Positions 2,327 through 26,886 of a stretch of 64,000 nt of DNA are shown in pieces. The DNA lies in the NCBI RefSeq assembly GCF_013761175.1, contig NZ_JACDUR010000001.1, forward strand, positions 1,240,001 through 1,304,000, read 5' to 3'. The notes beneath the pieces were generated by a model that was not told the DNA's origin, made no database searches, and saw nothing but the letters and a program-made list of their open reading frames with translations. Within the stretch, counting starts at the first letter, position 1, and each line of letters starts with the position of its first letter. Source of the DNA: Nonomuraea soli. GTDB taxonomy: Bacteria > Actinomycetota > Actinomycetes > Streptosporangiales > Streptosporangiaceae. A program made the position numbers and the translations under genes.

Positions 2327-3040
2327 TTACGAGTCGTCCTCATCATCGTCATCCCCTTCGACGGTCCAGGTGACCGAGGTGACCGACGGTTCCAGGCTCA
2401 GCCGGCTCGTGGCCCGCTCGAACAGGCCCTCGTCGCGCTTGAGGCTGTCGACCATGGCGTGCACCTCGACCTGGCCGCGCACGTCCGCGTCGTGGCTGTG
2501 CAGGCTGCGCAGGCGCAGCTCGGGGCGGGTGAGTGCGGCGACGATGAGGCTGCGGACGTGCGCCTCGTCCTGCTTGGGGCACAGCACCTCGAAGCGGTAG
2601 CGGGTGCGCTGGCGGGCCCGGCGGCGGTCCAGGAAGCGTCCCAGCGGCCGCATCAGCGTGTTGGCGCCGACGATGAGCAGGGTGCCCGCGGTGGCCAGGA
2701 CGAACATGCCGGCCCCCGCCAGCGATCCGACCGCCGCCGCGCACCACAGGGTGGCGGCGGTGTTCAGGCCGCGGATGTTGAAGCCCTCGCGCAGGATCAC
2801 GCCCGCGCCCAGGAAGCCGATGCCCGAGACGATCTGCGCGGCCACCCTGGTGGGGTCGGCGGTCCCCGCGTCGTTGCTGAAGCCGTAGGCGCTGAGCAGG
2901 ACGAACAGCGCCGATCCGACGGCCACCAGCAGGTTGGTGCGGATGCCCGCCATGCGGGCGCGCCACTGGCGCTCCATGCCGATCACCGCGCCGAGCCCGC
3001 CTGCGACGATCAGGCGCAGCATCAGCTCCAGATCAGCCAT
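2327..3040 (-). CDS. MgtC/SapB family membrane protein
   Basis: A 237-residue protein of the MgtC/SapB family, inner-membrane proteins linked to growth in low magnesium and to ATP-synthase or membrane-potential control. The N-terminal half is hydrophobic and carries family signatures: GGLGAVIGMERQ, GIRTNLLVAVGSALFVL, RVAAQIVSGIGFLGAG and LNTAATLW. The C-terminal part (about residues 150-237) is a soluble ACT-like domain ending in an acidic tail. The start was chosen at ATG 3040 because the family begins just before the first membrane helix; the longer open frame upstream runs antisense through another gene. It heads a probable three-gene operon. Confidence 0.9.
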   Translation of the reverse strand: MADLELMLRLIVAGGLGAVIGMERQWRARMAGIRTNLLVAVGSALFVLLSAYGFSNDAGTADPTRVAAQIVSGIGFLGAGVILREGFNIRGLNTAATLWCAAAVGSLAGAGMFVLATAGTLLIVGANTLMRPLGRFLDRRRARQRTRYRFEVLCPKQDEAHVRSLIVAALTRPELRLRSLHSHDADVRGQVEVHAMVDSLKRDEGLFERATSRLSLEPSVTSVTWTVEGDDDDEDDS

Positions 3041-25423: not shown

Positions 25424-25635
25424 CAACGCGCTGAGGGAACCGAGTACCCCGAGGAGCACGCGGGCCGAGAGAGCCGCCGGCAGCTGGGAAGGCGGCCCCG
25501 CGTCCACGGGCGAAGACACTCCCTCGCGACGGCGCGCGCACGGCAAGAGGCCGCCGGTCCGGCGGCGAAGGTGTGGTGGCACCGCGAGTGTCCCTGCTCG
25601 CCCGCACCTCCCAGGGCTCACTCTGAGGAGGTGTG
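25424..25635 (+). promoter_or_regulatory. T-box riboswitch, translational type, upstream of an AspRS gene
   Basis: The leader matches the T-box consensus: 25573-25586 reads GUGGUGGCACCGCG, 12 of 14 positions of AGGGUGGNACCGCG. It forms the full antisequestrator: AGGUGUGG (25569-25576) pairs with CCGCACCU (25602-25609); the 7-nt bulge UGGCACC is 25577-25583; GCGAG (25584-25588) pairs with CUCGC (25597-25601). The competing helix pairs 25603-25611 with 25627-25635 (9 bp), burying the ribosome site GGAGG. Further stems: 25473-25478 with 25491-25496, and 25550-25556 with 25560-25566. A short Stem I candidate (25427-25462) has AAC at 25438-25440 in its loop. UGGC fits an acceptor end GCCA, i.e. 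G73 as in tRNA-Asn and tRNA-Asp. No T-tract is present, so control should be translational. Confidence 0.82.
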
Positions 25636-25638
25636 AAG

Positions 25639-26886
25639 ATGTCACGTGTCCTGTCCGCCGCGCTCACCGAGCACGCGGGACACTCCGTCACGATCGCCGG
25701 CTGGGTCCATCGCCGCCGCCGGTTGAAGTCGGTCTCGTTCCTGATCGTCCGCGACCGCGCCGGGCTCGCCCAGGTGGTCGTCCACGAGGGCGAGCTGCCG
25801 CCCGAGGAGAGCGTCGTCGAGGTCACCGCCACGGTCGTCGCCAGCCCGCAGGCCCCGGGCGGGGTCGAGCTGGTCGAGCCGGAGATCACCGTGTTGTCGG
25901 AGCCGGCCCAGGCGCCGCCGTTCGACCTGTTCCGCCCTGCCGTACCCGCCGCGCTGCCCACGGTCCTCGACCACGCGCCCGTGGCGCTCAGGCATCCGGC
26001 GCTGCGCGCGGTGCTGGAGATCTCCGGCGCGAGCGTGTCGGGTTTCCGCGCGACGCTCGACGGCGCCGGGTTCACCGAGATCCACACGCCCAAGCTCGTC
26101 GCGTCGGCGACGGAGTCGGGCGCGAACGTCTTCCCGGTCGACTACTTCGGCCGCACGGCCTATCTGGCGCAGTCGCCGCAGTTCTTCAAGCAGATGATGG
26201 TCGGCGTGTTCGAGCGCGTCTACGAGGTCGGCCCGGTCTTCCGCGCCGAGCCGCACGACACCGCGCGGCACCTGGCGCAGTACACCTCGCTGGACGTCGA
26301 GCTGGGCTTCGTGCGCGACCACCGCGACGTCATGGCGGTGCTGCGCGAGGTGCTGTCCGGGATGGTCGAGTCGGTACGGCACCGCGGCCACGCCGTCGGG
26401 CTGCCGCACGTGCCGCAGGAGATCCCCGCGCTGCACTTCACCGAGGCCAAGGCGCTTACCGGCGACGACGGCGAGCCCGACCTCTCACCGGCGCAGGAGC
26501 GGGCACTGTCGGAGTGGGCGCTGCGCGAGCACGGCTCGGAGTTCGTCTTCGTCACCGGCTACCCGATGGTCAAGCGGCCGTTCTACACCCATCCCGACCC
26601 GGACAGGCCCGGCTACTCCAACGGCTTCGACCTGCTCTTCCGCGGGATGGAGCTGGTGACGGGCGGCCAGCGGCTGCACCGGTACGCCGACTATCTGGCC
26701 GCTCTGGACGAGCGTGGTGAGCCGGTGGAGCCGTACGAGGGCTACCTGTCGGCCTTCGCCCACGGCATGCCGCCGCACGGCGGCTTCGCCATCGGCCTGG
26801 AGCGGTGGGTGTCGCGGCTGGCGGACCTGCCGAACGTCCGGCAGGCGGCGCTGTTCCCGCGCGACCTGCACCGGCTCTCGCCCTAA
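25639..26886 (+). CDS. aspS: Archaeal-type aspartyl-tRNA synthetase, probably non-discriminating (Asp/Asn)
   Basis: A 415-residue class IIb aminoacyl-tRNA synthetase. An N-terminal OB-fold anticodon domain (about 1-105) precedes a catalytic core with motif 2 FRAEPHDTARHL and motif 3 GMPPHGGFAIGLERWV. It lacks the GAD insertion of bacterial AspRS and has archaeal AspRS marks such as FTEIHTPKL and LAQSPQFFKQMM. Such enzymes commonly charge both tRNA-Asp and tRNA-Asn, feeding the GatCAB amidotransferase. ATG 25639 sits 7 nt after GGAGG; the earlier GTG 25633 is too close. The T-box leader controls that ribosome site. Whether a bacterial AspRS also exists cannot be seen here. Confidence 0.93.
   Translation: MSRVLSAALTEHAGHSVTIAGWVHRRRRLKSVSFLIVRDRAGLAQVVVHEGELPPEESVVEVTATVVASPQAPGGVELVEPEITVLSEPAQAPPFDLFRPAVPAALPTVLDHAPVALRHPALRAVLEISGASVSGFRATLDGAGFTEIHTPKLVASATESGANVFPVDYFGRTAYLAQSPQFFKQMMVGVFERVYEVGPVFRAEPHDTARHLAQYTSLDVELGFVRDHRDVMAVLREVLSGMVESVRHRGHAVGLPHVPQEIPALHFTEAKALTGDDGEPDLSPAQERALSEWALREHGSEFVFVTGYPMVKRPFYTHPDPDRPGYSNGFDLLFRGMELVTGGQRLHRYADYLAALDERGEPVEPYEGYLSAFAHGMPPHGGFAIGLERWVSRLADLPNVRQAALFPRDLHRLSP

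Follow-up and report, generated by a model that had tools for sequence, protein, structure and literature searches.

What controls the archaeal-type aspartyl-tRNA synthetase (AspRS) gene at 25639-26886 of the window (the whole stretch of 64,000 nucleotides of Nonomuraea soli DNA that was analysed), and which tRNA is read by the leader in front of it? The host is a Nonomuraea-type soil actinomycete, and the leader lies on the mRNA for a second, archaeal-style AspRS. The original prediction of a T-box upstream of this gene was confirmed for positions 25428-25638, with support from Infernal, from covariation in homologous aspS leaders, and from a conserved UGGN bulge; the three points named beforehand as able to refute it all spoke for it. 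The leader is very probably a tRNA-Asp-specific T-box through which uncharged tRNA-Asp would turn on translation of the second AspRS. The parts of the leader and the gene are as follows:

25428-25527, + strand: T-box stem I (cmscan, RF00230 model 7-103, 17.9 bits; its helices covary in 38 leaders)
25443-25446, + strand: AGUA, the 5' strand of the specifier loop (loop E), from the RF00230 alignment and conserved in the 38-leader alignment
25468-25472, + strand: AGAGA, the distal stem I motif, aligned to the AGAGA of RF00230 and present in 78/81 leaders
25512-25514, + strand: GAA preceding the specifier (GAA-GAC is 25512-25517 in the RF00230 alignment)
25515-25517, + strand: specifier GAC (aspartate), from the RF00230 alignment
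25549-25566, + strand: stem III, from the RF00230 alignment, MFE folding, and a covarying helix
25569-25576, + strand: 5' arm AGGUGUGG of antisequestrator helix A1, pairing with 25602-25609, with covariation
25577-25583, + strand: T-box bulge UGGCACC, from the sequence and the RF00230 alignment; its UGGC fits the tRNA-Asp 3' end GCCA (G73)
25584-25588, + strand: 5' arm GCGAG of antisequestrator helix A2, pairing with 25597-25601, with covariation
25592-25596, + strand: 5' arm CCCUG of helix S1, in the A2 apical loop, pairing with 25612-25616 and covarying in 74 leaders
25597-25601, + strand: 3' arm CUCGC of A2, with covariation
25602-25609, + strand: 3' arm CCGCACCU of A1, pairing with 25569-25576, with covariation
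25603-25611, + strand: anti-Shine-Dalgarno arm CGCACCUCC of helix S2, pairing with 25627-25635 and overlapping the A1 3' arm
25612-25616, + strand: 3' arm CAGGG of S1, 4 nt after the sixth A1 pair, with covariation
25627-25635, + strand: 3' arm GGAGGUGUG of S2, with the Shine-Dalgarno GGAGG at 25627-25631 (S2 duplex -16.9 kcal/mol)
25639-26886, + strand: archaeal-type aspartyl-tRNA synthetase, 415 aa (NF003483, TIGR00458, 1n9w)

Analysis with cmscan showed RF00230 as the best Rfam match to the window leader, in two collinear pieces. The match at 25545-25605 (model 159-216) scored 24.8 bits (E 0.0025 in 901 nt and 0.00066 in 237 nt), and the stem I match had an E of 0.15 in 901 nt and 0.04 in 237 nt. 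The gathering score of RF00230 is 93, and at that score no RF00230 match was obtained in the window, in 20 loci, or in 101 genomes. Failing the gathering threshold is a sensitivity limit, because the 28 ileS-type T-boxes of the order fail as well (the gene was verified as ileS for L006 only; the others are ileS-type by layout). Full-length matches, also below the gathering score, were obtained in 6/6 homologous aspS leaders (51.4-63.3 bits). The best score seen among the aspS leaders was that of L106 (77.8 bits), L128 scored 54.2 bits, and L104, L109, L129, L130, and L131 gave no RF00230 match at E <= 0.1. The host genome contained three matches at E <= 10, at two places, which were the window leader and a site upstream of ileS. 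Since the Rfam threshold misses the whole examined set, genome annotation probably does too. The stability of the whole leader was not unusual for its composition (z -0.84).

A scan for relatives, with one genome per species, found 254, and all leader counts rest on the best 80 of these 254, which with the window make 81 leaders. The relatives came from Nonomuraea, Streptosporangium, Planomonospora, Sphaerisporangium, Microbispora, Amycolatopsis, Kutzneria, Kitasatospora, Streptomyces, Catellatospora, Microlunatus, Rhodococcus, and others. The strict motif GGYGGHACC lay at most 260 nt from the match start in 77 of these 80, and in 80/80 when ACA was allowed; the UGGN bulge was kept. A pattern preferring GAC found AGAGA and GAA-GAC in 78 leaders including the window, the three exceptions being Catellatospora leaders (L104, L107, and L116) without the long stem I. 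From the 78, 38 leaders at no more than 90% identity were drawn and aligned with plain MAFFT and no GAC preference (alignment A2), and GAAGAC was invariant in 38/38 of these non-redundant rows. From the 38 leaders RNAalifold predicted 47 pairs, spread over stem I, II, III, and the antisequestrator; at least one two-sided change was seen in 22 of them. The antisequestrator had been proposed as an 8-bp A1, the bulge UGGCACC, and a 5-bp A2, and all of its pairs were found at the coordinates listed above; in 74 distinct homologous switch regions it showed 60 two-sided cells (0/500 shuffles). Chance pairing in GC-rich sequence was ruled out by the collinear RF00230 matches, this covariation, and the gene linkage. 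The output of RNAalifold is nested and cannot show the pairing of the A2 loop (S1); its pairing of three C of IIA/B with the GGG of an S1 arm (columns 195-197/355-357) had no two-sided change and was rejected.

The specifier GAC narrows the specificity to Asp. The host tRNA-Asp (anticodon GUC), located via RF00005 (61 tRNA matches) and ARAGORN (run on five regions), carries G at position 73, and its CCA end is not encoded. UGGC is complementary to GCCA, and the N of UGGN fits discriminator G73 of tRNA-Asp. Several Amycolatopsis, Catenulispora, and Streptomyces relatives carry the bulge UGGU, a G.U wobble. By its match to the RF00230 motif, the distal AGAGA is a putative tRNA elbow motif. A search for tRNA-Asp by a typed anticodon-arm pattern stayed at noise level (47 matches against 54 in the reversed control), a second pattern gave none, and both were discarded.

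The product of the gene matched NF003483 (aspartate--tRNA(Asn) ligase) at 523.7 bits, with a cut-off of 353, and TIGR00458 at 338.8 bits, under its cut-off of 368.4, and the closest solved chain was Thermus AspRS2 1n9w (E 2.6e-112). Its GWVH and APGG align with the H and P of 1n9w and 1wyd; 1b8a has GWVW and AKLG. We take these two positions to separate discriminating from non-discriminating archaeal-type AspRS, with H and P marking the non-discriminating type. Judged by these residues and the family match, the enzyme appears to be of the archaeal-type non-discriminating AspRS type; it has no bacterial GAD insertion. The other AspRS of the host genome is bacterial-type and has 576 aa against 415 aa, behind a HisRS-like frame, and a match at G000:C3 is presumably LysRS. 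That the leader senses tRNA-Asn, the enzyme being of the non-discriminating aspartate--tRNA(Asn) ligase type, would agree with the NF003483 match and with a reference title stating that a Clostridium acetobutylicum T-box controls tRNA-dependent amidation, but it is extremely improbable: the specifier is GAC, not AAC, in all 38 rows, on which ground Asn specificity was rejected. The Asp/Asn-type target of the original prediction thus stood for Asp and fell for Asn.

Of 200 genomes searched in the order, 61 had the synthetase at E <= 1e-60. R1, a covariance model built on the switch region, gave strong matches (E <= 1.5e-12) in 59 of the same 200 genomes, and 58 of these were within the 61, by coordinates on the same strand and just upstream of the gene; this linkage is not an independent test, because R1 was built from leaders including some from the same species. 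The 59th genome, G153, contained a complete Asp T-box leader (L197, G153:C1:428100-431500) whose synthetase frame, by eye, stops matching at ~90 codons; the locus adjoins MFS-like sequence. The synthetases of G096, G144, and G197 (41-44% identity) had no R1 match and no motif in their upstream DNA, and those of G144 and G197 may belong to a different pathway. Weak R1 matches were obtained in G061, G069, G077, G087, G028, G036, G066, and G125, and no T-box layout was seen by eye at the weak matches in the first four. Across the phylum the gene was rare (5/396 genomes). The protein tree mixes families and places Streptosporangiaceae in several positions, and for this reason the gene and its leader probably moved together. 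The neighbours at nine loci, taken from crude gene calls, were MFS, YflT, glycosyltransferase-like, no family, ABC transporter, HTH_67, lipoyl ligase, and globin-type, and a gene-cluster role was rejected as nothing was shared beyond MFS in two close relatives.

Beyond the original prediction, the analysis added stem I, the specifier, the full stem II and IIA/B that relatives have and the window copy has lost, and a third helix. This helix, S1, joins the apical loop of A2 to 5 nt lying exactly 4 nt past A1. Over 74 distinct leaders, 99.5% of its cells pair, 3 of its 5 pairs have two-sided changes, and there were 12 two-sided cells (0/500 shuffles). With the position fixed at 4 nt beyond the sixth A1 pair, 5/5 pairs formed in 79 of the 81 leaders and 4 in L097 and L111; this register held although the spacer occurs in ten sequences and the loop varies from 6 to 13 nt. 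The same measure in the 28 ileS-type T-boxes gave 0 to 4 pairs, never 5. At the last S1 pair, 69 leaders carry U-A, 6 carry G-C, and 3 carry A-U, a distribution that requires a minimum of 6 changes on the protein tree. The G-C form was seen in two places, in the window with Thermoactinospora and in a Microbispora/Sphaerisporangium clade apart from them. By A-form estimates the span over 11 bp is ~31.5 Å and the reach of 4 nt is 30-35 Å, and S1 together with complete A1 and A2 would be feasible but tight. In view of the fixed 4-nt spacer, S1 probably belongs to the ON state and would form on A1/A2 while uncharged tRNA-Asp keeps these in place.

How the start site is masked had been ascribed to a 9-bp helix over GGAGG. 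This helix, S2, is present in the window and shares 25603-25609 with A1, so that it and the antisequestrator exclude each other; the predicted openness of the Shine-Dalgarno in the window was 0.22 with A1/A2 and 0.00 without. The claim held for the window and Thermoactinospora (L049), where S2 is strong, and failed for most relatives, which have a different predicted start-site hairpin. S2 showed no excess covariation in the alignment register and was not upheld there as a universal sequestrator. The comparison of matched with permuted S2 arms gave 2/2000 over 57 combinations and 0.11 with one row per arm. In nested folding, the mean Shine-Dalgarno openness over the 81 leaders was 0.343 and 0.302, with a gain above 0.1 from A1/A2 in only 11/81 and a drop in 2. 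The equal openness with and without A1 in most relatives therefore argues against a simple strand-swap switch in them.

A predicted hairpin closing over the Shine-Dalgarno was found in 76/81 leaders, and in 75/81 at least 2 S1-arm bases pair within it at or beyond the start codon. Its mean z was -2.5 against mononucleotide shuffles (z < -2 in 59/81), and its matched against permuted arms gave 7/2000, or 0.024 with one row per cluster. RNA structure also seems to constrain the opening codons. The six leaders lacking the S1-arm overlap were the window, L049, L093, L095, L097, and L100; the window is without the start-site hairpin, and the A1 3' arm masks GGAGG there instead. In the other 75 the S1 3' arm is part of the predicted start-site hairpin, and S1 and the hairpin therefore compete for the same bases. 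Apart from S1, no pairing was found through which A1/A2 could be linked to this hairpin, and on these folding models S1 may couple sensing to start exposure.

From this layout we infer both tRNA binding and its consequences at the start site. Stem I would recognise tRNA-Asp through GAC and the anticodon GUC, plus the distal AGAGA. With uncharged tRNA, the 3' end GCCA would pair with the bulge UGGC and fix A1 and A2, which would keep the A1 3' arm off the Shine-Dalgarno so that the ribosome could start. With charged tRNA, A1 would be lost and its 3' arm would pair with GGAGGUGUG, masking the start. The A2 apical loop would pair with the segment just downstream (S1), which is the 5' arm of the hairpin in most relatives, and S1 would then open the hairpin. 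The cell would thereby produce its spare AspRS at times when charged tRNA-Asp is scarce. An on-demand copy for such a shortage, for example under an AspRS inhibitor, could be the reason for the second AspRS in many actinomycetes, and S1 offers a testable new coupling of tRNA sensing to start-site exposure.

The part played by S1 can be read in two ways. Tentatively, and at somewhat less than an even chance, the antisequestrator would be pseudoknotted: the A2 loop, presented only with uncharged tRNA-Asp on A1/A2, would capture the 5' arm of a separate start-masking hairpin, and the sensing and masking helices would share no strand and be coupled only via S1, unlike in classical strand competition. 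It is also conceivable, although doubtful, that S1 belongs to the OFF state, where, combined with S2 (the A1 3' arm on the Shine-Dalgarno), it would form a start-masking H-type pseudoknot. The excess of matched over permuted S2 arms over the 57 combinations points this way, as does the classical pseudoknot layout of the window, in which S1 and S2 abut without a gap (25611/25612) and leave loops of 6 nt and 10 nt; by most A-form estimates, moreover, S1 is barely compatible with complete A1 and A2. However, many relatives with a perfect S1 have a weak or broken S2, and the S1-A1 spacing is the same in 79/81 leaders despite the variable spacer and loop, which suggests that S1 is read with A1.

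Translational control had been proposed, and it fits the U runs between A2 and the start, the longest of which was 1-3 in 81/81 leaders. With no U run above 3, an intrinsic terminator was ruled out, and in 75/81 the hairpin predicted downstream extends to the start codon or past it. Regulation by transcription termination in the Firmicutes style is accordingly quite unlikely, although passages of PMC7583486 and PMC7778990 describe transcriptional T-boxes as having this type of stem I, long and with AGAGA.

Turning to the reduced architecture of the window copy, stem II and IIA/B are absent there and kept in most relatives, and the specifier-to-T-box distance is 63 nt, where the other 77 leaders have 71-190 nt. 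GAG after CUCC, which we take to be the K-turn 3' side, was present in the other 37 rows of alignment A2 and replaced in the window, and MFE folding gave a plain helix at the base of the window stem I, with the K-turn 3' side gone. These losses would suit a decaying relic with no useful tRNA binding, and so would a passage of PMC7583486 in which IIA/B is needed for tRNA binding in the ileS T-box and its deletion weakens binding ~1,200-fold. A relic is nevertheless unlikely, as the specifier, AGUA, AGAGA, stem III, the bulge, A1 (8 bp), A2, S1, and S2 are intact, and the interval is also short (71 nt) in L106 of Microlunatus endophyticus (2752-2943), which has the best score given above. A further passage of PMC7583486 describes stem II as optional overall, with glycine T-boxes lacking it, and the absence of stem II and IIA/B in the window therefore does not exclude a T-box. 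Read as a tRNA-Asp T-box, the window copy offers a naturally occurring deletion in which the roles of stem II, IIA/B, and the K-turn side could be studied.

Among known systems, the aspS leaders resemble the actinobacterial translational ileS T-box (Nocardia farcinica and Mycobacterium; passages of PMC1262725, PMC7583486, and PMC10651847) in being T-boxes that precede a synthetase gene within this phylum, and an ileS T-box is present in the host genome itself (L006). Both have a UGGN-bulge antisequestrator and no U run, and at several ileS loci the A1 3' arm is by eye complementary to the Shine-Dalgarno region, as in the window. In contrast to the ileS-type T-boxes, in which the bulge was UGGU in 28/28 and S1 reached a maximum of 4 pairs, the aspS leaders have a GAC specifier, UGGC or UGGU, 5/5 S1 pairs in nearly every leader, a long stem I with AGAGA, and, in most, a start-site hairpin in place of a simple A1-arm sequestrator. 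With the class I T-box RF00230 (mainly Firmicutes) they share AGUA, the GAA-specifier, AGAGA, stem III, and an antiterminator-like A1/A2, and, in relatives only, stem II and IIA/B with CCGUCA. They differ from RF00230 in their scores (24.8 to 77.8 bits against 93) and in having start-site masking and no terminator.

The archaeal-type AspRS2 of Thermus thermophilus (1n9w, 3kfu), the closest solved chain, is named non-discriminating, and the literature searched yielded nothing on how it is regulated. T-boxes of aspS/GatCAB in Clostridium acetobutylicum were reportedly described by Saad in 2012 and 2013, a T-box there being said to control tRNA-dependent amidation and the T-box codons being said to be Asn and Glu. 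The present leader is likewise a T-box in front of an extra AspRS of a kind connected with tRNA-dependent amidation, whereas its specifier, unlike in that Firmicute, is Asp and its gene stands alone. One of three aspS genes of C. acetobutylicum is mentioned in a passage of PMC2494555. The actinobacterial T-boxes are placed on ileS in passages of PMC2494555, PMC1262725, PMC7583486, PMC10651847, PMC9437257, PMC7778990, and PMC4206432; his genes are mentioned in a listing, and TBDB pools the Asp specifiers (GAC 0.94) with no phylum named for them. Extra AspRS genes outside Deinococcus-Thermus are placed mainly in Actinomycetales without AsnRS in a passage of PMC4206432. No report of an aspS T-box in Actinobacteria was found in the literature searched, which was covered in part, and the leader would add an Asp-reading T-box to a phylum whose described T-boxes, in the passages cited, sit on ileS.

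A few minor observations were also made. L240 (G506:C2:289103-289200), from another family of the class, matched R1 at 30.2 bits (E 5.2e-6), with no synthetase at E <= 1e-60 reported for G506. At L199 and L200, the loci of G144 and G197, the synthetases (43-44% identical) lie behind a frame that looks, by eye, like a radical SAM protein. The three Catellatospora leaders (~2790-3009 of each locus) have the same antisequestrator, with CCCAA/UUGGG as S1, and their start-site hairpin reaches into codons 2-5. Many relatives begin with ATGATC, which is complementary to GATCA upstream of the Shine-Dalgarno (25639-25660 in the window and the same place in the others).
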